Part shown: positions 2,830 to 49,683 of the stretch, piece after piece
Layout: each line of letters begins with the position of its first letter
How positions within the stretch are numbered: position 1 is the stretch's first letter
Assembly (NCBI GenBank): GCA_030524225.1
Contig: JAUNGV010000012.1
Span: 1-56,940 of the forward strand
Direction: 5' to 3'
Length of the DNA: 56,940 nt
From: Eubacteriales bacterium
GTDB lineage: Bacteria > Bacillota > Clostridia > Lachnospirales > Lachnospiraceae
Notes under the pieces: model-generated
Databases searched by the model: none
Told to the model about the DNA's origin: nothing
The model's input: the letters and a program-made list of their open reading frames with translations, nothing else
Position numbers and translations under genes: made by a program

Positions 2830-3871
2830 AAAAAGAGTGCGGATCGCCGTATTGCTGGCGGCAGCGCTCTCTCTGACATCCGGCTGTGCGCTGCGCGGTT
2901 CCGGAGAGAATCTGAGCGCGGGAATGAGCGCTGTGCAGAACCGGGAGTATGATTCCGCTCTCGCCTCTTTTGACGCCGCGCTGGAGGCCGGGGAGGATGA
3001 AAAGAGCGCGCAGCGCGGGCGTGGGATCGCCCTGATGGGACAGGGAGATTACGAAGGGGCGGCGCAGGCATTCGAGGCAGCGCTGGCGTGCGGAAGCGGA
3101 ATTCCGGAGGATATCGATTACGACATCAACTACTATCTGGCGGCCTGTTTTATGAAGCTGGGACAGACGGGAGAGGCGAGAGCGGTCTATGACGCGATGA
3201 TCGCGCTGCGTCCGAACGACGCGCAGACGTATGAGCTGCGCGGGGCGGCGGAGCTGGAGCAGGGGGCGTTTGACGCCGCGGATGCGGATTTTCGCAGGGC
3301 GATTGAGATTGAACCCACCAATTATGACCGGATGATAGAGATTCTGGAGACGCTGCAGTCCCACGGCTATGAGGAGACGGGGCAGACGTATCTCTCAGAG
3401 GCTCTCGAGACATACGGGGAGGGAATGTCCAATTTTGATAAGGGGCGTCTCTCCTATTATCTGGAGGATTACGATACGGCGCGCACCTGTCTGGAAAAAG
3501 CGCGCTCCGATACGAACTATCAGGCGACGGTGCTGTTGGGGAAGACGTACGAGGCGCTCGGCGATTACAATTATGCGCTCAGCGTTTATCAGGCGTATCT
3601 GGCAAACGATACAACGCACCCGGAGATTTATAACCAGATGGGACTGTGCCAGATGGCGATGGGCAGTTACCAGGAGGCGCTGCTCTCTTTTGAGGAGGGC
3701 ATGAAGATTCAGGACAACGCCGTGCTGCAGAGCCTGTCTTTTAATGAGATTATCGCTTATGAGTATCTGGGCGAATTCAAAAAGGCGTCGGTTCTGATGG
3801 AAACGTATCTGGAGAATTATCCGGAGGACGAGACGGCGAAGCGCGAGGCGGTGTTTTTGGAGACTAGGTAA
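2816..3871 (+). CDS. TPR-repeat lipoprotein
   Basis: 351 residues from a GTG start at 2816, 8 nt after AAGGAG (2803-2808). The N terminus is a short Arg/Lys stretch, a hydrophobic segment and a lipobox LTSGC, so it is probably diacylated at Cys and anchored on the outer face of the membrane. The rest is a row of tetratricopeptide repeats, for example around ALASFDAALEAG, AAQAFEAALA, DFRRAIEIEPTNYDR, ALSVYQAYLAND and ALLSFEEGMKI, a solenoid for protein-protein contacts. No catalytic motif. Overlaps the EamA gene by 14 bp. The partner protein is unknown. Confidence 0.85.
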   Translation: MRFPEKRVRIAVLLAAALSLTSGCALRGSGENLSAGMSAVQNREYDSALASFDAALEAGEDEKSAQRGRGIALMGQGDYEGAAQAFEAALACGSGIPEDIDYDINYYLAACFMKLGQTGEARAVYDAMIALRPNDAQTYELRGAAELEQGAFDAADADFRRAIEIEPTNYDRMIEILETLQSHGYEETGQTYLSEALETYGEGMSNFDKGRLSYYLEDYDTARTCLEKARSDTNYQATVLLGKTYEALGDYNYALSVYQAYLANDTTHPEIYNQMGLCQMAMGSYQEALLSFEEGMKIQDNAVLQSLSFNEIIAYEYLGEFKKASVLMETYLENYPEDETAKREAVFLETR

Positions 3872-3873
3872 AA

Positions 3874-3981
3874 AGCGGGATGGAACATCCCGCTCGAAGC
3901 GCGGGGCGCTTCGGTGCAGATCAGAAACCGCCTGCGCGGATTTCTGACCGCAGAGCCGCGAAAACCGCGGCAGAGGAGGGG
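3874..3981 (+). repeat. intergenic hairpin cassette, fullest copy (upstream of pyrF)
   Basis: Four consecutive hairpins fill the TPR-pyrF spacer. Hairpin 1: 3874-3882 / 3886-3894 (AGCGGGATG, loop GAA), starting 3 nt after the stop codon. Hairpin 2: 3895-3902 / 3906-3913 (CGAAGCGC, loop GGG), then G. Link TGCAGA. Hairpin 3: 3921-3947, TCAGAAACCGC paired with GCGGATTTCTGA. Hairpin 4: 3955-3960 / 3966-3971, GCCGCG with CGCGGC, loop AAAAC. The ribosome site AGAGGAGG follows directly. Other copies show the same order with different but complementary arms. Confidence 0.85.
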
Positions 3982-3984
3982 ACG

Positions 3985-4932
3985 ATGATTCAGAAACTGA
4001 TTGACAGAATTCAGGAAACGGGAGCGCCGATTGTGGTGGGACTGGATCCCAATATGAAGTTTATTCCGGCGCATATTCAGAGAGAGGCCGAGAGGGCGCG
4101 CCGCGACAATATTTTTGGTGACGACGATCTGGAGACGGCGGCGGAAGCGGTGTGGCGCTTTAATAAGGAGATTATCGACGCTGTGTATGATCTGATTCCC
4201 GCGGTCAAGCCGCAGATCGCCATGTATGAGCAGTTCGGGATTCCGGGGCTGGTGGCGTACTGGAAGACGGTTCGTTACTGCCGGGAGAAGGGGCTGATTG
4301 TGATCGGCGACGTCAAGCGGGGCGATATTGGTTCGACGTCGGAGTCGTATGCGATTGCCCATCTGGGAAGAATCTCGGTGGGAGGTCATAAGGTGCGGGT
4401 GTTCGACGAGGACTTCGCGACGGTGAATCCGTATCTGGGATCGGACGGGGTCAAACCGTTCATCAATGTATGCAACGAGGAGGACAAGGGAATCTTCGTG
4501 CTGGTCAAGACCTCGAATCCGAGCAGCGGAGAATTCCAGGATGTGGAGACGAAGGACGGCCGCCCGGTCTACGAGCTGGTGGGAGAGAAGGTCAGGGAGT
4601 GGGGCGAGCTCTCGATGGACGGGACGTACAGCAATGTGGGCGCGGTAGTCGGCGCGACGTATCCGGAGCAGGGACGGATTCTGAGAAAGCTGATGCCCAA
4701 CACCTATATCCTGGTGCCGGGCTACGGCGCGCAGGGCGGTCAGGGCAAGGATCTCGTCGATTTCTTTAACGAGGACGGACTGGGCGCAATCGTCAATTCC
4801 TCACGGGGCATTATTGCGGCGTATCAGCAGGAGAAGTACGCGAAGTTCGGCGAGGAGCGGTTTGCGGAGGCGTCCCGCGCGGCGGTGCAGGATATGATCG
4901 AGGATATCGCGGGCGCGCTGGCGGCGAGATAG
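3985..4932 (+). CDS. pyrF: orotidine 5'-phosphate decarboxylase, type 2
   Basis: 315 residues, the length of the longer type-2 PyrF of clostridia and actinobacteria rather than the ~235-aa type 1. It decarboxylates OMP to UMP, the last step of de novo pyrimidine synthesis. VVGLDPN near the N terminus binds phosphate/ribose; DVKRGDIGSTSESYA holds the catalytic Lys-Asp-Lys-Asp style cluster; VPGYGAQGGQGKD and the final NSSRGII form the phosphate gripper. ATG 3985 lies 4-5 nt after AGAGGAGGGG. No other pyrimidine gene is nearby, so it is separated from a pyr operon here. The leader carries the four-hairpin cassette. Confidence 0.95.
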   Translation: MIQKLIDRIQETGAPIVVGLDPNMKFIPAHIQREAERARRDNIFGDDDLETAAEAVWRFNKEIIDAVYDLIPAVKPQIAMYEQFGIPGLVAYWKTVRYCREKGLIVIGDVKRGDIGSTSESYAIAHLGRISVGGHKVRVFDEDFATVNPYLGSDGVKPFINVCNEEDKGIFVLVKTSNPSSGEFQDVETKDGRPVYELVGEKVREWGELSMDGTYSNVGAVVGATYPEQGRILRKLMPNTYILVPGYGAQGGQGKDLVDFFNEDGLGAIVNSSRGIIAAYQQEKYAKFGEERFAEASRAAVQDMIEDIAGALAAR

Positions 4933-7649: not shown

Positions 7650-8948
7650 ATGGTGAGAAAGAAAGGAAAATGCAGAGCGGCGCTGGCGGCGGCTCTTCTG
7701 GGCGCAGTGATCTCTCTGGCGGGATGCGGTGCATCGGAGGGATCCGGCACGACGACGCTCTCCTTCCAGATCTGGGACAATGCGCAGAGAGCCGGCATGG
7801 AGGCGATGGCGCAGGCGTACATGGAGGAGAATCCGGACGTCAGGATCGAGGTGCAGGTGACGAGCTGGGACGAGTACTGGACGAAGCTGGATGCGGCGGC
7901 GGAGTCGAACCAGCTGCCGGACATTTTCTGGATGCACACGAATCAGATTCTCAAGTATGCGGACTACGGGATGCTGGCGGATCTCACGGATCTCTACGAC
8001 GAGGAGGATCCGGGATATTATGAGGAGCATTTCTCAGAGATTTCGCTGGACAACGCCAGAGGCTCGGACGGGCGGATCTACGGCGTGCCCAAGGACAAGG
8101 ATACGATCTGTCTCGTTTACAACAAGGAGATGTTCGATGCGGCAGGTGTGGACTATCCGGATGAGAGCTGGACATGGGACGATCTGACAGAGGCCTCTGC
8201 CGAGATTTACGGGCGCACGGGGAAATACGGCTATATGGCGTATGCGGACGATCAGCTGGGATACTGGAATTTCGTCTATCAGGCGGGCGGCTACATTCTG
8301 AACGAGGACAAGACGAAGGCCGGCTTTACGGACAGTGCGACCCGCATGGCGATGGAATTCTATATCGGGCTGCAGAAAGAGGACTGGTGCCCGGATCAGA
8401 ACTACTTCGCAGAGACGGCGCCGGGCACAGCATTCATCTCGGAGCAGGGCGCGATGTATCTGGAAGGAAACTGGAACCTGATGTCCATGATGGAAAATAA
8501 CGAGGACATGCAGGGAAAATGGGATGTGGCCGTGCTTCCCCAGTGTCCGGATCCGGAGAGAGGGGACGGACGCGCGACGATTTCCAACGGTCTGTGCTAC
8601 GCGACCGGAGCCAGAGGGAAGAAGCTGGAGGCGGCCAAAGACTTTCTCAAATTCCTCGGATCGGAGGAGGGACAGCGCATTCAGGGCGAGTCCGGCGCGG
8701 CGATTCCGGCCTACGAAGGTCTGGAGGGCACATGGGTGAGCGCTTTTGACAAATTTGAGAGCGCACCGGACGTGCAGAAGTGCGTCGATATGTTCGACTA
8801 CAGCGTGCAGAGCGTCAACAACGCCTCCCGTCCGAACTGGAAAACGCAGGTCAGCGATACCCTGTTGAAGATCTACAGCGGGGAGCTGACGCTGGATCAG
8901 GGGCTGGAACAGATGCAGGAGCTGGTGGACAGCGCAAAAGCACCGTAA
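7650..8948 (+). CDS. sugar ABC transporter substrate-binding lipoprotein (family 1)
   Basis: 432 residues. A Lys/Arg-rich N terminus, a hydrophobic stretch and lipobox SLAGC mark a lipoprotein on the outer membrane face. Family-1 solute-binding protein features follow: LSFQIWDN, VRIEVQVTSWDEYWTKLDAA, LPDIFWMHTNQ, YGVPKDKDTICLVYNKEMFD and the C-terminal KDFLKFLGSEEGQRI. It captures a sugar and hands it to the two permeases downstream. No ATPase gene is in the operon, so a shared MsmK/UgpC-type ATPase encoded elsewhere is expected. The GH36 gene at the end of the operon suggests raffinose, melibiose or similar as cargo. Confidence 0.92.
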   Translation: MVRKKGKCRAALAAALLGAVISLAGCGASEGSGTTTLSFQIWDNAQRAGMEAMAQAYMEENPDVRIEVQVTSWDEYWTKLDAAAESNQLPDIFWMHTNQILKYADYGMLADLTDLYDEEDPGYYEEHFSEISLDNARGSDGRIYGVPKDKDTICLVYNKEMFDAAGVDYPDESWTWDDLTEASAEIYGRTGKYGYMAYADDQLGYWNFVYQAGGYILNEDKTKAGFTDSATRMAMEFYIGLQKEDWCPDQNYFAETAPGTAFISEQGAMYLEGNWNLMSMMENNEDMQGKWDVAVLPQCPDPERGDGRATISNGLCYATGARGKKLEAAKDFLKFLGSEEGQRIQGESGAAIPAYEGLEGTWVSAFDKFESAPDVQKCVDMFDYSVQSVNNASRPNWKTQVSDTLLKIYSGELTLDQGLEQMQELVDSAKAP

Positions 8949-8955
8949 TCGCAGA

Positions 8956-8984
8956 GCCGCAGACTGATTGCGGCATGGAGGGAA
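8956..8984 (+). repeat. SD-proximal GCCGC hairpin, permease 1 leader
   Basis: GCAGAGCCGCA: stem GCCGCA (8956-8961) with TGCGGC (8969-8974), loop GACTGAT, followed by ATGGAGGG and the start at 8987. One of the recurring SD-proximal hairpins (also 3955, 10932, 24122, 26813, 26943, 45718). It separates the binding-protein gene from the permease gene. Confidence 0.7.
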
Positions 8985-8986
8985 AA

Positions 8987-9865
8987 ATGAAAAAAGGTTT
9001 TTGGACGGACGACGCCAAGTGGGGATATCTGCTGGTGGCTCCCACGGTGATCGGTCTGATTGTACTGAATGTGTATCCGTTTATACAGACGCTTGTTCTG
9101 AGTTTTTCCACGACGCATCCCTTCGGGATTTATGAGATCAGCGGCGTTGGCAATTATGAGCAGATGTTTTCGAGTCAGGAATTCTGGAAGGCGACGTGGA
9201 ATTCGATTTACTTCTGTATCCTGACAGTGCCTCTGGGCGTGTTCCTCGCACTGCTGACCGCGGTGCTGCTCAATGCCAAAATCAAGGGCAAAGGCGCGTT
9301 CCGGGCGATTTACTTCCTGCCGATGGTTGTGGCACCGGCGGCGATCGCAATGGTATGGAAGTGGATTTTCAATGCGGAGTACGGCATCATCAACCAGATT
9401 CTGGGAGCTCATGTGAACTGGCTGACGAACCCGGCGCTCGTTCTGCCGGCCTGCGCGGCGGTTGCGATCTGGAGCGCGGTGGGATACGACGCAATTCTGC
9501 TGCTGTCAGGACTGCAGAACATTTCCAAGAGCTATTATGAGGCGGCCAGCCTGGACGGGGCGACGAAGGTGCAGCAGTTCTTCAAAATCACATTGCCGAT
9601 GGTGAGTCCCACCCTGTTCGTGGTACTGGTCATGCGGCTGATGGCCTCCGTGAAGGTCTACGATCTGATCTACATGATGGTGGATCAGTCGAATCCGGCG
9701 CTGACGAGCGCGCAGTCGCTGATGTATCTGTTCTACCGTGAATCCTTCGTGGCAGGCAACCGGGGATATGCCTCCGCGATCGTAATCTGGACAGTGCTGC
9801 TGATCGGTGTGATCACGGCGTTCCAGTTCTGGGGACAGAAAAAGTGGGTTCACTATGAGGTATAA
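8987..9865 (+). CDS. sugar ABC transporter permease, MalF/UgpA type
   Basis: 292 residues, six predicted membrane helices. The cytoplasmic coupling loop has the binding-protein-dependent transport pattern EAASLDGATKVQQFFKITLP. Start ATG 8987 has GGAGGG 5 nt upstream. It should form a heterodimer with the permease at 10065 and import the sugar bound by the lipoprotein at 7650. Between the two permease genes lies an unusual 199-bp spacer with a terminator-like stem, so expression of the two subunits may not be equal unless there is readthrough. Confidence 0.93.
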   Translation: MKKGFWTDDAKWGYLLVAPTVIGLIVLNVYPFIQTLVLSFSTTHPFGIYEISGVGNYEQMFSSQEFWKATWNSIYFCILTVPLGVFLALLTAVLLNAKIKGKGAFRAIYFLPMVVAPAAIAMVWKWIFNAEYGIINQILGAHVNWLTNPALVLPACAAVAIWSAVGYDAILLLSGLQNISKSYYEAASLDGATKVQQFFKITLPMVSPTLFVVLVMRLMASVKVYDLIYMMVDQSNPALTSAQSLMYLFYRESFVAGNRGYASAIVIWTVLLIGVITAFQFWGQKKWVHYEV

Positions 9866-9866
9866 C

Positions 9867-9919
9867 GCAGAAACCGCCTGTGCGGATTTCTGCTCGCAGG
9901 ACCGCAAAGAGCTGCGGTC
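9867..9919 (+). repeat. intergenic hairpin modules 3 and 4 between permease genes
   Basis: GCAGAAACCGC (9867-9877) pairs with GCGGATTTCTGC (9882-9893), loop CTGT, beginning 2 nt after the permease stop. A second stem GACCGCA (9900-9906) / TGCGGTC (9913-9919) follows. These match hairpins 3 and 4 of the pyrF-leader cassette, with complementary base changes. Here the copy is not followed by a start codon but by a terminator-like stem. Confidence 0.75.
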
Positions 9920-9930
9920 GGGAGAAAAGA

Positions 9931-9962
9931 TTAAAAAATAAGCCCGATAGCTTATTTTTTAA
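9931..9962. terminator. terminator-like stem between the two permease genes
   Basis: TTAAAAAATAAGC (9931-9943) and GCTTATTTTTTAA (9950-9962) form a perfect 13-bp stem with loop CCGATA, with a T-run in the right arm. The position inside an operon is unexpected; it may lower expression of the second permease and the alpha-galactosidase, or act as a processing or RNA-stability site. Confidence 0.6.
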
Positions 9963-10043
9963 TCCGGAATTTGTGGAGGAGCGTCACAAATTTCGCTGAT
10001 GGCAGACGCAAATCTGAAATTTGCGGAGCCCGTCGCGGGGGGC

Positions 10044-10059
10044 GCTCCGGAATGGAGAT
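10044..10059 (+). promoter_or_regulatory. shared translation-start leader GCTCCGGAATGGAGAT
   Basis: GCTCCGGAATGGAGAT ends 5 nt before the permease ATG and supplies its ribosome site (GGAG). CGGAGC (10024-10029) pairs with GCTCCG (10044-10049), so the ribosome site is flanked by a stem. The identical 16-mer precedes the gene at 49688; near copies precede the starts at 15255 (minus, 15/16) and 18982 (14/16). Confidence 0.65.
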
Positions 10060-10064
10060 TAAGT

Positions 10065-10916
10065 ATGAAAAGAACAGGAAAAGGCGGCTCGCAGAGTCAG
10101 AGCCGCAGATGGAATACCGCTCTGGTTTATCTGGCGCTGGGAGTGGGCGCGGTGCTGATGATTTTTCCCTTTTTATGGATGTTCCTGACGAGCTTTAAGT
10201 CGCCGGGAGAGAGCGTACAGATCCCGCCGACGATCCTGCCGCAGCAGTGGCTGACGAGCAATTACAGTCAGGCGCTGGTTTCGCTTCCGTTTGTCAGACT
10301 CTATATCAACACGCTGCTGCTGATCGTATTCCGTGTGATCTGCGCGGTGGCCTTCTCCTCTGCGGCGGGGTTCGCATTTGCAAAGTGCCGTTTTAAGGGG
10401 AAAAACGTTCTCTTCTCCCTCGTGATTGTACAGATGATGCTGCCGACACAGATTTTCATCATTCCGCAGTATCAGATGCTGGCAAAAATGGGACTGACGA
10501 ACACGATCTTCGCGCTGGTGTTTCCGGGACTTGTCAGCGCGTTCGGAACCTTCTTCCTGCGGCAGGCGTATATGGGAATCCCTGACGAGCTGGGAGAGGC
10601 GGCCTATCTGGACGGCTGCAATAAGTGGCAGACATTTATCAAGGTGATGATGCCGCTGACGAAATCCTCGATGGCGGCTCTGACGGTATTTACCGCGGTC
10701 TTTGCTTACGGGGATCTGATGTGGCCGCTGATTGCGAATACGGATCTGAACATGATGACTCTTTCGGCCGGCCTCTCGACACTGCGCGGACAGTTCACGA
10801 CGAATTATCCGGTGCTGATGGCAGGTTCGGTTCTGGCGATGGTGCCGATGGTTATTCTGTATCTGGTGTTCCAGAGACAGTTTATCGAGGGTATCGCGCT
10901 GACCGGAGGGAAGTAG
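10065..10916 (+). CDS. sugar ABC transporter permease, MalG/UgpE type
   Basis: 283 residues, six predicted helices, with the MalG-type coupling loop EAAYLDGCNKWQTFIKVMMP and the typical C-terminal FQRQFIEGIALTGGK. ATG 10065 is 5 nt after GGAATGGAGAT; this leader (10044-10059) is identical over 16 bases to that of the penicillin-binding protein gene at 49688. A longer start at 9999 would translate the palindromic leader and is unlikely. It pairs with the permease at 8987. Confidence 0.93.
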   Translation: MKRTGKGGSQSQSRRWNTALVYLALGVGAVLMIFPFLWMFLTSFKSPGESVQIPPTILPQQWLTSNYSQALVSLPFVRLYINTLLLIVFRVICAVAFSSAAGFAFAKCRFKGKNVLFSLVIVQMMLPTQIFIIPQYQMLAKMGLTNTIFALVFPGLVSAFGTFFLRQAYMGIPDELGEAAYLDGCNKWQTFIKVMMPLTKSSMAALTVFTAVFAYGDLMWPLIANTDLNMMTLSAGLSTLRGQFTTNYPVLMAGSVLAMVPMVILYLVFQRQFIEGIALTGGK

Positions 10917-26166: not shown

Positions 26167-26772
26167 ATGACTTTGCGGGAGAGAGTGGAGGAGAGAAGGC
26201 GTCTGGGAAGCGCGGAGGCAGGAGCATTTCGCGGGAGCAGAGCCTACCGGAATTTTTTTGAGGGATATGAGGAGGTGGCGGTGCCACGCGGGAACGGACG
26301 CGGCGTCCGGATTGAGAGGATTTACCGCGGATCGTACTATGTGCAGGAGGGATCCGATCATGTCTGGCTGCGTCGAAAAGTGCTCTGTCTGCTGCTGTAT
26401 CTGGCCTCTTTTCTGTGCTTTGCCGCAGCGGCGTGGCCGTCCTATGCGGGAAATACCGCCGCATACACTGTGCTGGCGCAGGCGGTTGCGGCTCTGCTGT
26501 ATCTCTGGCTCTTTACCGTGGTGTGTTCTTACATCGTCTCCGGAAGAAGAATGACGGTGTCCAAGTACAAACGGGCTGTTCTGCCGATGACAAACGCAGC
26601 GGCGGCGGTGTCATTCGTTCTCCTGCTCACGGCGGCGATGCAGGTGGTTTACTGTGTGATAAACCGCGGCGGCGCTTATGCGTGGACGGGCGCGGCGGCG
26701 TATCTGGCAGCGGCAGGATTCGCCGCACTTCTGTACCGGCAGGAAAAGAACTGCAGGTACCGAACAGAGTAA
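26167..26772 (+). CDS. predicted membrane protein of unknown function (201 aa)
   Basis: Residues 1-65 are soluble and charged (VEERRRLGSAEAGAF, YEEVAVPRGNGRGVRIERIY); residues ~68-190 form four hydrophobic helices with short Arg/Lys loops (VSGRRMTVSKYKRAV). I do not recognise the family. AAGGAGG is 6-7 nt before ATG 26167. It follows the peptide ABC operon by 78 bp and is followed by a duplicated leader module. Composition matches the neighbours. Confidence 0.7.
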   Translation: MTLRERVEERRRLGSAEAGAFRGSRAYRNFFEGYEEVAVPRGNGRGVRIERIYRGSYYVQEGSDHVWLRRKVLCLLLYLASFLCFAAAAWPSYAGNTAAYTVLAQAVAALLYLWLFTVVCSYIVSGRRMTVSKYKRAVLPMTNAAAAVSFVLLLTAAMQVVYCVINRGGAYAWTGAAAYLAAAGFAALLYRQEKNCRYRTE

Positions 26773-26779
26773 ACTATAG

Positions 26780-26839
26780 CAGAAATCGCCTGCGCGAATT
26801 TCTGATCGCAGCGCCGCGGATAAACTGCGGCGAGGGAGG
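26780..26839 (+). repeat. duplicated leader module, upstream copy without a gene
   Basis: Hairpin 3 (26780-26804, CAGAAATCGC with GCGAATTTCTG) and hairpin 4 (26813-26819 / 26825-26831, GCCGCGG with CTGCGGC, one G-T pair) plus GAGGGAGG. Nearly identical, over about 60 bp, to 26908-26968. It ends in a good ribosome site but no credible start follows, so it looks like a duplicate of the real leader 128 bp downstream. Confidence 0.85.
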
Positions 26840-26847
26840 CTACGCGC

Positions 26848-26969
26848 GTCAGAAATGCCTGATGGCCTTTCTGACACACGCGAAACGCAGGCGTTTCGGG
26901 ATTGCAGATCAGAAATCGCCTGCGCGAATTTCTGATCGCAGCGCCGCAGATAAACTGCGGCGAGAGAGG
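26848..26969 (+). repeat. intergenic hairpin cassette, copy upstream of the 188-aa gene
   Basis: Hairpin 1 26848-26875 (GTCAGAAATGCC / GGCCTTTCTGAC), hairpin 2 26881-26888 / 26891-26898 (CGAAACGC / GCGTTTCG, then GG), link ATTGCAGA, hairpin 3 26909-26935 (TCAGAAATCGC / GCGAATTTCTGA), hairpin 4 26943-26961 (GCCGCAG / CTGCGGC), ribosome site GAGAGAGG, ATG 26977. Relative to the pyrF copy, hairpin 3 has the compensating change CCGC/GCGG to TCGC/GCGA. Confidence 0.85.
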
Positions 26970-26976
26970 TTAACGT

Positions 26977-27543
26977 ATGGAAAAGAAGACGATGGAGGTG
27001 CAGAAGGCGTCTCTCACAGGGCTGGATCTGCGTATGGCGGTTTCTGTCCTGCTGTGCGTGCTGAGCGCGACGATACTGAATCATCTGGGACTGAAATTCC
27101 CGGTGGGAGAGATGCGTCTGGAGATCATTCAGAAGATGACGGCAGCGATCTGCTGTATGCTCTGCTGTCAGGAATCGGTGTTCGTCAGCAGACGGGCGGG
27201 CAGCAACCGCCTGATCATCACAGCAGTCGGCGGATTGGTGGGAATCGCAGTGATTCTGCTCGATGAGATGATTGGAAATGAATGGGTTCTGTGCGCGATG
27301 ATTGGGCTGGGAATCGCGGCGACGCTCTATTTCTGTAAACTCTGTAAAGTGCCGTACATCAATGCCCGCATTGGAGGCGTGACGTTTATTCTGGTGACGT
27401 GCACATTAAGCGGCAACGCGCGTATCTACTACGCGGTGTTCCGTTTTGTTTCGACGTTTTACGGCGTGCTGGTCGTCATGCTGGTGACGTGGATTTTTCA
27501 GAAATGTGGATGGATGGGAGAAAAGACCGGGACAACCGGTTGA
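26977..27543 (+). CDS. small membrane protein, FUSC/ArAE_1-like
   Basis: 188 residues with about five hydrophobic segments. The run LRMAVSVLLCVLSATILNHL, then QKMTAAICCMLCCQESVFVS and NRLIITAVGGLVGIAVIL resembles the N-terminal membrane half of the aromatic-acid-exporter/FUSC family; the cytoplasmic C-terminal domain of full-length members is missing. Function unknown; export of small organic acids is a guess from the family. It ends 14 bp before deoC and is probably co-transcribed with it. The leader carries the full hairpin cassette. Confidence 0.65.
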   Translation: MEKKTMEVQKASLTGLDLRMAVSVLLCVLSATILNHLGLKFPVGEMRLEIIQKMTAAICCMLCCQESVFVSRRAGSNRLIITAVGGLVGIAVILLDEMIGNEWVLCAMIGLGIAATLYFCKLCKVPYINARIGGVTFILVTCTLSGNARIYYAVFRFVSTFYGVLVVMLVTWIFQKCGWMGEKTGTTG

Positions 27544-31300: not shown

Positions 31301-32132
31301 AGGACTGTTTGTGCCGGGGGCGTATGAGCTGGCGTTCGGGACGAGGGAGGCACCGCTGGGAGAGATTGTTCTGCCGCTTTCGCTGCGGGACGGGACAGAG
31401 AAGTCGGCGCTCTATCTGAACGGTCGGATTGACAGGATCGATCTGTGCGAGACGCAGGACAGCGTTTATGTGAAGATTCTTGATTATAAATCAGGGTACC
31501 GGGATCTCGTACCGGAGCGAATCCGTCAGGGGCTGCAGCTGCAGCTGATGGTTTATATGGCGGCGGCTCTGGAGATGGAGCACGCGCTTCACCCGGAGAA
31601 AAAGGCGGTGCCTGCCGCCATGCTCTACTATCGTTTTGACGATCCGCTGACCGAGGAGACCGCACCGCCGGAGGGCGGGCGGACAGAACAGGTGAATCAG
31701 GCGGAGCCGGACAATCAGGCAGTGCCGGAAAAGCGGCAGGCGGGTCAGACAGCACCGGAGGAGGAGCAGGATGAGGCGCAGCGGGCGGCACAGCGTAGGC
31801 TGCTGCGCCCGCGCGGACTGGTCAATGCGGACGAGGCGGTGCTCGAACTTCTCGACCGTGGACACACGAATACCTCCGATGTCATTCCTGTGGGATGGAA
31901 AAAGGACGGCTCGCTCACCTCATCCTCCAAGGCGATCAGCGAGGAAGAATACAGGGAACTGGAGGAGGCGGCCAGAGAGGCGATGTGCCGGCTGGGAGAG
32001 GAGATCCTGCGCGGCAATGTGACGGCCTCTCCCAGCATTGTGGATGGAAGAAGCGCCTGCCTCTACTGTCCGTACCGGGATGTGTGCGGATTCGACAAAA
32101 AGACGCCGGGATATACAAAACGCACTTTGTAG
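28353..32132 (+). CDS. addB: ATP-dependent helicase/nuclease subunit B (AddB)
   Basis: 1259 residues, about 100 more than usual. MGYRFVFGASGAGKS at the very N terminus is the AddB Walker A and fixes the start at 28353. The C-terminal nuclease has ILDYKSGYRD (about 1043-1052), and the iron-sulphur staple has Cys near residue 873 (ETCAQC) and CLYCPYRDVC at about 1236-1245. With AddA it resects double-strand breaks to a Chi-like site for RecA. A 36-bp tandem repeat (about residues 290-345) inserts Gly/Ser/Glu/Arg-rich sequence, and a second Gln/Glu/Pro-rich insertion lies near 1110-1150. No ribosome site precedes the ATG. addA follows after 163 bp rich in palindromes. Confidence 0.95.
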   Translation: MGYRFVFGASGAGKSYFLYREIIEQAEKSLLKPVHFFYVVPDQYSMQVQKELVAAHPSHGIMNIDVLSFGRLAHRIFEEIGMQERPVLNDMGKTLVLRRIAGTIRKSLPVIGGNLHKSGYIAEVKSALSEFMQYGVGLRELDGLIEYAAGQGALQARLRDLRTLYEAFLDYERERFVTSEETLDLLALAVPQSGLLRDSVIVVDGFTGFTPVQNRVLCALMQRAAQVSVSLTISQDGGLPVRQVMETGDAGAQESLFYAARKTVRDLSRLAQEAGVIHERDLYLSGGEAQRSGGGAAGVAEVERSGGSSDAAVAERPGRNSGAGAEERLGGSSETTVTEQFGRTTVACPVRFRENPELAHLEAHLFRYPLRPYREEHGAQDAAFAPRNGVYGGENRESGADLEESAIRIYEASDPEEEARQMCILIRRLVEEEGYCYRDFAAVAGDLESYADALLKMSARYEIPVYIDRKSGVSSNPLTEAIRSALEIVLMDFSYESVFHYLRSGLSDLTQEETDALENYCLAHGIRGAKRWDRVFETEVEEARVRFLSEIAPLRIAVSAKVTVGERVRALYAFLLGVQAQSKTEESASQFAREGDPVRERAYRQLYRKVMELLDQIYELLSEERMNARDFMELMETGFGEIRVGTLPQKADRLVAGDMERTRLMQVKVLFVLGVNDGNIPKSASGGGLLSDLDREFLAGSGTELAPTPRQQMYTQRLALYLNMTKPTERLFLSYARVSADGRTQRPSYLIPMIRRMFPQTQIEVPEREPAASRLRSLRDSLPFLADSLRQFADGYYDGDEAQRRLFLTVYGLGAVLPGGESGAGGSVAGEMERRLSVLTEAAFRRYRPQTLRPQTAEKLYGRYLRGSVSRLETCAQCYCRQFLQYGMRLRERPEYRFVPTDAGNVLHESVDKFAGKLRERGLTWANFTREQGRQLAEEVVEESTAAYADLLLYATARSTAAVERIKRVLARSVETLQYQLSRGLFVPGAYELAFGTREAPLGEIVLPLSLRDGTEKSALYLNGRIDRIDLCETQDSVYVKILDYKSGYRDLVPERIRQGLQLQLMVYMAAALEMEHALHPEKKAVPAAMLYYRFDDPLTEETAPPEGGRTEQVNQAEPDNQAVPEKRQAGQTAPEEEQDEAQRAAQRRLLRPRGLVNADEAVLELLDRGHTNTSDVIPVGWKKDGSLTSSSKAISEEEYRELEEAAREAMCRLGEEILRGNVTASPSIVDGRSACLYCPYRDVCGFDKKTPGYTKRTL
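29233..29388 (+). repeat. 36-bp in-frame tandem repeat in addB
   Basis: Marker positions GGAGCTGCGG (29235), GGAAGTTCGG (29271), AGAAATTCGG (29307), GGAAGTTCGG (29343) and AGAACCACGG (29379) are spaced exactly 36 bp, four to five diverged units of 12 codons. Confidence 0.85.
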
Positions 32133-32170
32133 AAAGCACAAAGTGCATTCGAGGCGGCAAAGCCGCCTCG
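32122..32170 (+). repeat. intergenic hairpin pair, addB-addA spacer
   Basis: Hairpin 1 GCACTTTGT (32122-32130) / ACAAAGTGC (32138-32146) includes the addB stop codon. Hairpin 2 CGAGGCGGC (32150-32158) / GCCGCCTCG (32162-32170), loop AAA, then G. Further down, AAAGTGC half-sites recur at about 32218 and 32273, with GGCG/CGCC between, as if the pair had been partly duplicated. Confidence 0.8.
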
Positions 32171-32295
32171 GGGAAGCGGATGCGGAGAACTGTGGACAGC
32201 GAATTTTGTGAAGAACGCAAAGTGCGCTGGGAAGGCGGAACGCCTGTAAACAGTGCACTTCGTAAAGAGCACAAAGTGCATTGAGAAAGGGAAGT

Positions 32296-36462: not shown

Positions 36463-36772
36463 AAGAAACCGTCAGGAGAATGGGCGGAAGGGATTTTTTT
36501 GCTTGATTTTGATTTGGGGAATGAGAGAGATCTGTGATATACTGGACGTCGTAGCGCGGAGCGGAGGTGTGGACGCCGGGGTTCGGCGGAGAGGCAGACC
36601 GTCCGGGAAGAGGAAGCGGCGATGCGGACGCCGGGGTTCGGCGGAGAGGCAGACCGTCCGGGAAGAGAAAACGGAGGTGCGGACGCCGGGGTTCGGCAGG
36701 AAATGTACGGCGCCGGACGGGGAGATTTCCAACCGGTCCGCGGGACAAAGAGAACAGGAGGCGGGGATTTAG
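36463..36772 (+). promoter_or_regulatory. 310-bp spacer with extended -10 and repeat array
   Basis: After addA there is a T-run (36494-36500) without a clear stem. TGATATACT (36535-36543) is an extended -10 with no good -35; it could drive the next gene from about 36550. The 55-bp tandem repeat described separately occupies 36561-36705, and AGGAGGCGGGG before 36773 is the ribosome site. No credible gene is present. Confidence 0.5.
36561..36705 (+). repeat. 55-bp tandem repeat (non-coding minisatellite)
   Basis: GGACGCCGGGGTTCGG begins at 36571, 36626 and 36681, exactly 55 bp apart. The first two units are nearly identical over the whole period and the third is cut short after GGTTCGGC. It lies between a probable promoter and the start of the CmpB-like gene, so copy number would change the leader length. 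Confidence 0.9.
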
Positions 36773-38738: not shown

Positions 38739-38870
38739 AACAGACTTTGCGTTCCGCAAAGTCTGTTCGAAGCAGCGGAGCTGCTTCGGCGTATAAGGAA
38801 CAGCTGTTTCAAAAGCGGCAAAGTCTGTACGAAGCAGATATGCAAAAGCAGCAAAGTCTGTACAAAGCAG
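38739..38870 (+). repeat. intergenic hairpin pair with AAAGTCTGT repeats
   Basis: Hairpin 1 AACAGACTTTGCG (38739-38751) / CGCAAAGTCTGTT (38755-38767), 2 nt after the ZIP stop. Hairpin 2 CGAAGCAGC (38768-38776) / GCTGCTTCG (38780-38788), then G. Two further GCAAAGTCTGTAC-AAGCAG copies follow at about 38818 and 38853. Same architecture as 1413, 3874, 26848 and 32122. Confidence 0.8.
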
Positions 38871-44934: not shown

Positions 44935-44989
44935 ACAGGGTAAATTCGTGCGGGCACGATTTTGCCCTGTTGATTCCGTCTGGCTGAAC
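44935..44989 (-). mobile_element. MITE-like palindromic element, truncated copy C
   Basis: Read on the minus strand it begins CGTTCAGCC and continues to ACAGGGCAAAATCGTGC and its partner arm. CAGGGTAAATTCGTGC (44936-44951) and GCACGATTTTGCCCTG (44954-44969) form a 15-of-16 stem immediately after the phosphofructokinase stop, so it may now act as that gene's transcript end. The rest of the element is missing. Confidence 0.7.
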
Positions 44990-45006
44990 GGTTATTCAAA
45001 ATCTGT

Positions 45007-45589: not shown

Positions 45590-45717
45590 GAGTCTCTTTC
45601 AAATGTCAGATGAATGTCAGACGGCGTTTGTGTGAGACCGGAAAACGGTGCCGGGGCGCTCCCGGCTCAATCAGGAAGGCGGAGCGGAGACCGTGTGGAC
45701 GGATTCCCGTTCGCAGA

Positions 45718-45742
45718 GCCGCGGGCAAAGCGGCGGAAAGGA
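45718..45742 (+). repeat. SD-proximal GCCGC hairpin, HMA gene leader
   Basis: GCAGAGCCGC then stem GCCGC (45718-45722) with GCGGC (45730-45734), loop GGGCAAA, followed at once by GGAAAGGA and ATG 45751. Member of the recurring SD-proximal hairpin series. Confidence 0.65.
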
Positions 45743-49247: not shown

Positions 49248-49399
49248 GTTCAGCCTGCGCCATTCGAGGGGCCGCGCTGTCGCGCTTTCCGCCGCTTCGC
49301 GGCTGCCTTTGCTCATGATCTGGCGCTCCCTCAGTCGGGAGCAACAGGTCAAAATTCGTGCGAGCACGATTTTGCCCTGTCCCTCCCGGCTGGCTGAAC
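49248..49399 (-). mobile_element. MITE-like palindromic element, most complete copy B
   Basis: 152 bp bounded by perfect 8-bp inverted ends GTTCAGCC (49248-49255) and GGCTGAAC (49392-49399). Internally CAAAATTCGTGC / GCACGATTTTG form a long stem (about 49349-49376), and GCCGC/GCGGC another (about 49290-49302). No target-site duplication is visible. A second TTCAGCCCGCGCCAT lies just outside at 49207, suggesting a nested or decayed end. Confidence 0.8.
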
Positions 49400-49454
49400 T
49401 GTTTGTGTTTTATTTAAGAAACCATGAAAATACTTTCTTTCACAGGGGGAGTTT

Positions 49455-49462: not shown

Positions 49463-49576
49463 TCTTTTTTAGTTCTTACATTTCGGCGGGAAAGAATCGG
49501 GGAGTAGTCAGCTCCGATACGAAGGAGTCATGCAGCAGACAGGCGAGGCCGCTTATCTGCCGCATCGGGATTTGTG

Positions 49577-49683
49577 CCGGAGCGTCACAGGTCCCGGCCT
49601 GAAACCAGAGAGTTCGCTGTCGATGTCAGAGGCAACCAGAGATTTGCACTGACCCGTCGTGAGAAACGCTCCGGAATGGAGAT
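49577..49683 (+). promoter_or_regulatory. long-range stem and shared leader before the penicillin-binding protein gene
   Basis: CCGGAGCGT (49577-49585) and ACGCTCCGG (49666-49674) are perfect 9-bp complements 80 nt apart; the right arm runs into GCTCCGGAATGGAGAT (49668-49683), identical to the leader at 10044, which carries the ribosome site. Folding could place the ribosome site at the base of the stem. Confidence 0.55.

Follow-up and report, generated by a model that had tools for sequence, protein, structure and literature searches.

The spacer ahead of a pyrF-like gene (start codon at 3985) in the window, by which the whole 56,940-nt stretch of DNA analysed is meant, carries a string of four hairpins followed by a Shine-Dalgarno (SD) sequence, all on the forward strand, as are the other window features of this kind given below. 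The first hairpin, H1 (AGCGGGATG..CATCCCGCT; 3874-3894), begins 2 nt past the upstream stop codon and is followed by H2 (CGAAGCGC..GCGCTTCG; 3895-3913), both being evident from the sequence and in a scan for perfect hairpins. The remainder, a module of H3, H4 and SD at 3913-3979, was matched with 75.3 bits by the covariance model R1, and within it H3 (3919-3949), H4 (3955-3971) and the SD (3973-3979) were read from the sequence. A full cassette has the order H1-H2-H3-H4, SD and start codon. In copies of the window's genome a short linker, GATTGCA or similar, lies between H2 and H3, an example of H3 being GATCAGAAACCGCCTGCGCGGATTTCTGATC; H4 has the form GCCGCAG..CTGCGGC, and the SD is AGGAGG-like, with the start codon often a few nucleotides further on.

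The first-pass annotation had described five such sites as a cassette of two hairpins in a single shared layout, anchored on the upstream stop codon, with three copies continuing into CAGATCAGAAA and further hairpins. All five were found where they had been placed, and a modular hairpin cassette does recur beside unrelated genes, but its extent had been drawn too short, as H3, H4 and the SD also belong to it. The CAGATCAGAAA module is H3, and it indeed follows H2 at the sites at 1413, 3874 and 26848, although not at 32122 and 38739, which have neither H3 nor H4. At the first of these sites, H1 (1414-1449, from sequence and fold) holds the stop codon of the gene within its 5' arm, H2 (CGAACCGGCGAAC..GTTCGCCGGTTCG; 1451-1479) was both read from the sequence and recovered by the perfect-hairpin scan, and a deletion has fused H3 and H4 into a remnant at 1486-1521 that ends in the SD AAGGAGG, ahead of the next start codon at 1527. 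The site at 26848 is part of a tandem, in which H3, H4 and SD of a first cassette (26771-26839; family A, matched by R1) are directly followed by an H1 with a TGAT loop (26848-26875), H2 (CGAAACG..CGTTTCG; 26881-26898, read from the sequence) and a second H3, H4 and SD (26901-26969; R1), with the start codon at 26977. The stop codon as anchor therefore holds only in part, since H1 at 26848 follows the SD of the preceding cassette and the constant neighbours across the genome are the downstream SD and start codon. The other two sites consist of H1 and H2 (32122-32170 and 38739-38788). A perfect H1 was found 0-4 nt ahead of H2 at 3874, 32122 and 38739 and an imperfect one at 1413, the H2 of site 26848 being below the length limit of the perfect-hairpin scan. 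H1-like arms recur at 32201-32228 and 32255-32282, and H1/H2 arm pieces at 38810-38837 and 38843-38870; these repeats (32201-32282 and 38810-38870) lie downstream in the same spacers and have a sequence specific to each locus.

Beyond the five sites, the window holds copies at 8937-8982, 9859-9926, 26771-26839 and 45676-45742, matched by R1, and at 9962-10058 and 49563-49682, belonging to a second sequence family, here called family B. The copy at 8937-8982 is a decayed family A element of which only H4 and the SD are left, with the next start 4 nt on. That at 9859-9926 comprises H3, H4 and an SD-like end, and directly after it stands a family B cassette (9929-10058, the motif match itself spanning 9962-10058) made up of H1 with a CGAT loop, H2, H3 and a CGCTCCGGAATGGAG end, before a gene start at 10065. 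A diverged H3, H4 and SD of family A lies at 45676-45742 (R1, E = 5.1e-9), and the motif scan for family B returned a degenerate copy at 49563-49682 that keeps H2 and the 3' end. The layout is thus not a single one, as at least two sequence families share it and two of the five original sites lack H3 and H4. The window also contains repeats of other kinds, namely a 52-nt pair (44942-44993 and 49352-49403, 87% identical) around an ACAGGG..CCCTGT-type hairpin that was seen at the first copy, and a spacer with three tandem 55-nt units (36560-36724), the third being 62% like the first.

In family B the parts are arranged as in family A but in other letters, with H1 built around GATTGAAAAATAAGC-YGAT-.., H2 GAGATTTGTGCCGGAGCGTCACAAATCTC, H3 GACGCAAATTGGATATTTGCGTC and the end CGCTCCGGAATGGAG. 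Within 741 kb its motif was found at 26 non-coding places; a CGCTCCGGAATGGAG-like end is present at 24 of them, and the same 24 are followed by a sense gene. One of these (L206:17723-17829) mixes A and B parts and also appears in the family A list. In a fuzzy scan for family B only sense copies with a GAT loop were read, matches on the reverse strand arising because H1 is nearly palindromic, and the ends of the family as read (AGATTGAAAAA.. and ..CCGGAATGGAGA) have no evident inverted repeat. Arrays combine both families, the spacer ahead of rplI, for instance, carrying an A-type H3-H4 piece, a B cassette and a full A cassette. Another repeat type of the same genome, with very long hairpins in CCGGAGCAAAGCGAAGG / CCGGAGCGAAGCGAAGG units, was noted on contig C100 (73089-73250 and 75006-75335).

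To set these hairpins against chance, 352 co-directional spacers (68 kb) from ten contigs (741 kb) were compared with 20 dinucleotide shuffles. Perfect hairpins of at least 8 bp numbered 148 in the spacers against 9.1 ± 2.4 in the shuffles; coding DNA amounting to 69.9 kb yielded 12. Hairpins beginning with CGAA or CGAG made up 12 of the 148, compared with a shuffled mean of 0.15 and a maximum of 1; in the same scan, eight of these 12 had a perfect hairpin 0-4 nt upstream, one had it at 46 nt and three had none. The search was then extended to the genome from which the window comes (G000), an assembly of 2.9 Mb in 127 contigs that is 80.9% complete. With the 3860-3990 stretch as the query, 44 matches were obtained at E ≤ 0.001. 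The covariance-model scan proposed in the first-pass annotation was performed with R1, a model of H3-H4-SD of family A built from 38 copies that count among its own matches, and returned many more copies, with 131 matches at E ≤ 1 and 101 at E ≤ 0.001 with stricter filters. It was therefore confirmed that the cassette is real, not due to chance, and larger than first noted. Three outcomes had been named that would tell against it, namely a lack of further copies, a loss of covariation and an equal yield of stems from shuffled spacers, and none of them was seen.

The genomic context was tallied for the 95 strongest of the 131 R1 matches, leaving aside the 36 weaker ones, with gene starts taken from a simple codon-score caller, so that single starts may be off. 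The next gene was in sense for 89 of the 95 copies, beginning 0-15 nt from the element end in 64, 16-60 nt away in 6 and 61-330 nt away in 18, of which 14 were seen by eye to run into a further cassette; in one copy the gene start was called 29 nt inside the element. Of the rest, three lay within a called sense open reading frame, two had an antisense gene next and one was without a gene call. The upstream gene was co-directional for 87 copies, divergent for six and uncalled for two. For REP/BIME, ERIC and Correia elements it has been proposed that hairpins in operon spacers protect the mRNA end upstream of them or act as processing sites, and a role of this kind would account for the 87 co-directional upstream genes, for the many spacers in which hairpins start near the stop codon and for the stability of the folds. 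We nevertheless regard this explanation as improbable, given that the upstream gene is divergent in 6 of the 95 copies and that in weak, old copies, inspected by eye, it is chiefly H4 and the SD that remain while H1 and H2 are lost, which is the opposite of what protection of an upstream end would leave. Retention of H4 and SD instead fits an element that took over the ribosome-binding site of the gene and whose other parts then decayed.

Covariation of the hairpin arms, which had been put forward for hairpins 1 and 2, was borne out by permutation tests. For H1, copies were chosen blind to pairing by a YGAT loop at a fixed distance, which gave 16 of the 95 and 14 after near-duplicates were dropped. 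The 5' outer arms of these 14 are on average only 33% identical, yet pairing within copies reached -12.1 kcal/mol against -4.4 across copies, and none of 5000 permutations was as good, even with two copies that form no hairpin retained in the test. The inner arms of H2 covary likewise (0/5000 permutations; 16 copies picked by CGAA and TTCG at fixed distances). H3 was tested on 30 hand-chosen elements from 12 genomes, the window's own included: 98.5% of cells were paired, both sides had changed at 7 of 11 pairs, and the covariation score was 0.360, compared with at most 0.075 in slid controls, and was reached in 0/500 shuffles. Covariation in H1, H2 and H3 is thus real. It had also been offered as an argument for selected RNA structure over DNA copying alone. 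The arm tally by itself cannot tell RNA from DNA structure, and it is on the basis of strand, position and the pairing of H2 with H4 that a structure in RNA is favoured.

This last pairing was examined in 21 hand-chosen elements, about one per genome, by measuring the longest complementary run between the H2 loop and H4. The mean run was 6.52 nt within elements and 4.94 nt across them, a difference reached in none of 20000 permutations, and again in none (0/20000) when the set was thinned to 15. In an 18-element version the longest run lay on the SD side of H4 in 14 and elsewhere in H4 in four (G018, G011, G015 and the family B example). Relatives, as well as many of the family B copies, have an H2 loop complementary to the SD-side strand of H4, with both sides varying between species, the loop/strand types being GGAGCGT/ACGCTCC, GAAGCGT/ACGCTTC, CGAAGCGC/GCGCTTCG, TGCCGCAG/CTGCGGCA, TGCCGAGC/GCTCGGCA and GTGCCGC/GCGGCAC. 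Within family A the pairing received no support, 17 copies giving a mean run of 4.29 nt against 4.09 nt for shuffled loops, with 97 of 500 shuffles as high. In family B, CTCC of the SD-side H4 strand is able to pair with GGAG of the SD, and two states may therefore be possible.

Of 17 family B copies, 16 also have an SD-like motif ahead of H1, and over all 37 elements the count is 26 (background 23.7%), with only 10 of 20 rows in relatives, these SD and start codon counts including one mis-extracted row inside a gene (G221, CCG); often this SD is the end of another cassette in a tandem. The foot of H1 bears a start codon in many relatives and in 14 of these 17 copies of family B, the first base never being C among 33 NTG, of which the TG itself was demanded by the search pattern. 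With an SD ahead of H1 and a start codon at its foot, ribosomes may enter the leader. These features, together with similar N-termini from the H1 start such as LKNKLDSLFF and VKNIVDTIFF, would suit small open reading frames for leader peptides, the hairpins being an incidental product of their codons. When read from the H1 start, however, the frames end anywhere between codon 19 and a point past codon 60; they contain internal stops and are shifted between copies, and on account of these erratic ends a conserved coding peptide was rejected; nor can one be kept in family A, as the H1 arms differ at two thirds of positions. Leader peptides are accordingly a very improbable explanation of the hairpins, with no peptide being conserved. 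In some copies (the rplI spacer, a family B copy at C47:56717 and, in another genome, locus L365, the last judged by eye), the frame from the H1 start continues in frame into the downstream gene, which could give an N-terminal extension of the downstream protein.

Among 24 other genomes of the genus, R1 found matches in 14, with 1 to 54 in each, and none in 10; it also matched a single genome from a different family within the order. Many elements in relatives are four-hairpin cassettes with the same layout in other letters. With a cross-species model, R2, matches were obtained in at least six of 246 genomes drawn from the order, the window's own included, a lower bound because 15 candidates were scored per genome. 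Of eight loci from the other R2-matching genomes, three (L363, L364 and L366) were left aside because the extracted stretch was misplaced. The remaining five, from four of those five genomes, are cassettes ending in SD and start codon, namely L365 and L370 (both G031), L371 (G182), L369 (G221) and L367 (G183; lacking H1), and the layout extends to another genus of the family and to two genera of another family.

Differences between species are clearest ahead of individual genes. The rplI spacer of the window's genome is 351 nt long with three cassettes, while in 19 relatives it measures -4 to 104 nt, with H1-H3 in none. A pattern count over 29 relatives gave no cassette-like piece at rplI in 24 and a piece in five, namely an end resembling that of family B in G003, G013 and G049 and H3 in G047 and G054, against a background in shuffled spacers of 2/2005 for the B end and 0/2005 for H3. 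In the first three of these genomes (loci L142, L147 and L141, respectively) a lone CGCTCCGGAATG..AGG stands directly before rplI, as if just the SD part of an old cassette remained. In the nearest relatives, G019 and G020, the upstream gene stops 1 nt before rplI and has an SD-like stretch within its end, and the same gene end precedes the rplI cassettes here. For adk, among 27 relatives, G047 was found to have an H3, G042 an end resembling that of family A and G055 a weak one of B type; R1 run over 80 named adk loci (1.23 Mb) gave three weak matches (best E 0.054), which were judged to be chance. For pyrF, among 29 relatives, a family A-like end lies 5 nt before the start in G056, by a loose pattern that 37 of 2005 shuffled spacers also match, as do five further spacers of pyrF at sites at least 39 nt from the start, and an H3-SD-like piece was seen by eye in G047. 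Cassettes therefore come and go, and the same genes may bear one in several species. The rplI, adk and pyrF pieces fit repeated gain as well as an old presence in common that was followed by loss, and do not separate the two.

The layout had been thought to lack a described family, in agreement with which a scan of the window against Rfam 15 gave no family at gathering score. At seven further loci, with a permissive E, none was over threshold at the cassette, SRP RNA and Clostridiales-1 being over threshold elsewhere; the latter family (RF01699) gave two adjacent matches in the window's genome (L226:9660-9962, contig C47), one over threshold at 69.2 bits and one below it at 30.6. TD-2 RNA (RF03162) matched one family B copy on its reverse strand with 45.8 bits, less than the gathering score of 48.7, and was absent from a larger scan. 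Genome-wide it gave three sub-threshold matches, and it also matched in Lactococcus lactis; we treat it as a resemblance between hairpin strings. No cassette match was found in phages or plasmids (one query each), none for two H3 patterns in viral contigs and none for the exact H3 string in genome contigs. A search of mainly open-licence literature, judged by titles and the starts of abstracts, found no description of such a cassette, which is weak evidence of novelty.

These distributions bear on whether the cassette is a selfish, short interspersed repeat of the MITE or REP kind, with hairpins that act as single-stranded DNA in mobilisation and with a sense orientation and closeness to start codons that reflect nothing but selection against harmful insertions. 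High copy number, tandems, presence differing between species and graded decay are as such an element would have them, DNA-level recognition could also yield hairpin covariation, and MRSC-65-2, a published repeat with one covarying stem, is seen in this way (PMC11109978). Such an element should, however, be tolerated on both strands in spacers upstream of the SD, and an antisense gene is next in only 2 of the 95 copies; the SD stands at the element's very end, and the pairing of loop to H4 covaries. Moreover, neither a Y1 transposase (PF01797) nor a reverse transcriptase (PF00078) was matched in the genome's assembly, profiles that were positive in 5 and 3 of 14 control genomes, respectively, although with an assembly 80.9% complete the absence of these enzymes is unproven. 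A purely selfish DNA element is thus, in our estimation, unlikely.

Given its position, its strand, the SD at its 3' end, the covariation in H1-H3, its differing presence between species and the cross-species potential for H2-H4 pairing, the cassette is best explained, with a modest degree of confidence, as a dispersed structured mRNA leader that replaces the gene's ribosome-binding site and probably modulates translation. The structural claim, that of a dispersed, RNA-structured leader cassette with its own SD, is strong, and the role in translation is one that we infer. Copies would insert just upstream of start codons, with mainly those in sense that bring an SD surviving. A full copy sits between an older SD, ahead of H1, and the downstream start codon, and would supply the SD now used. 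The SD-side strand of H4 would have two possible partners, its own hairpin and the H2 loop, and the choice between them would set translation of the next gene, and ribosomes loaded on the older SD might read into H1 and H2 and shift the balance, as in translational attenuation. A more far-reaching version, which we put forward tentatively and consider doubtful, is that of a mobile translational switch, in which a selfish element lands between SD and start codon and takes over with its own SD. Unrelated genes, rplI and adk among them, would then be under shared H2-H4 control with translation of the leader from the old SD as input, and different species would run covarying versions.

Short interspersed repeats of bacteria are usually viewed as passive hairpins, and here one class is the likely ribosome-binding region of about a hundred or more genes, its structure being held by compensatory change while the letters turn over. 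If translation is modulated, this would show a repeat rewiring the expression of a genome post-transcriptionally, and if the cassette is mobile, its way of finding start codons becomes a testable question. The copies themselves form a ready collection of natural variants on which H2-H4 pairing and the exposure of the SD could be tested.

Overall, the cassette seems to be a dispersed element of a kind not described before, with a possible role in the control of translation, and several known systems share part of its character. BOX, RUP and SPRITE of Streptococcus pneumoniae are likewise hairpin-forming, intergenic and multi-copy and can alter the expression of neighbours, BOX being modular and thought mobile, but they are described as over-represented between convergent genes (PMC3049150), whereas the cassettes lie in sense, by the start codon, with an SD at the end. 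In contrast to MITEs in general, including BOX, RUP and Correia elements, which are marked by a target duplication and by terminal inverted repeats in common with an IS element and have no fixed orientation to their neighbours, the cassettes are in sense in 89 of 95 cases and antisense in 2. REP elements, which have a GTAG head, are single short palindromes of alternating orientation, unlike the four hairpins found here on one strand relative to the genes. REP/BIME sequences with RAYTs resemble the cassettes in having more than 100 intergenic palindromic copies, but are reported to alternate in orientation within BIMEs and to go with tyrosine transposases (PMC2817692), while the cassettes have four hairpins and a loop pairing, with no Y1_Tnp match in this assembly. 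The TAACTGA repeats of Beggiatoaceae also lie forward, a few nucleotides upstream of the starts of unrelated genes, with a proposed translational role, but are described as heptamer arrays with an SD in few spacers (PMC4679880), the cassettes being hairpin strings. MRSC-65-2 shares a multi-copy covarying stem, although it is a single long stem and a mobile candidate, with no SD-linked position described in the part of the source available (PMC11109978). TD-2 RNA (RF03162) has three hairpins and partial letter similarity to a family B copy, differing in that its match is sub-threshold and on the opposite strand. Translational attenuators of the erm type have a leader start codon, competing hairpins and control of the SD, a layout like that of the cassettes, but they are single-gene regulators and not dispersed repeats. 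As for structured leaders as a class, the alternative pairing on the SD side is not distinguished within family A, where 97 of 500 shuffles reached the same level, but stands out across species (0/20000; 14 of 18 runs SD-side), and helix covariation is present in H1, H2 and H3.
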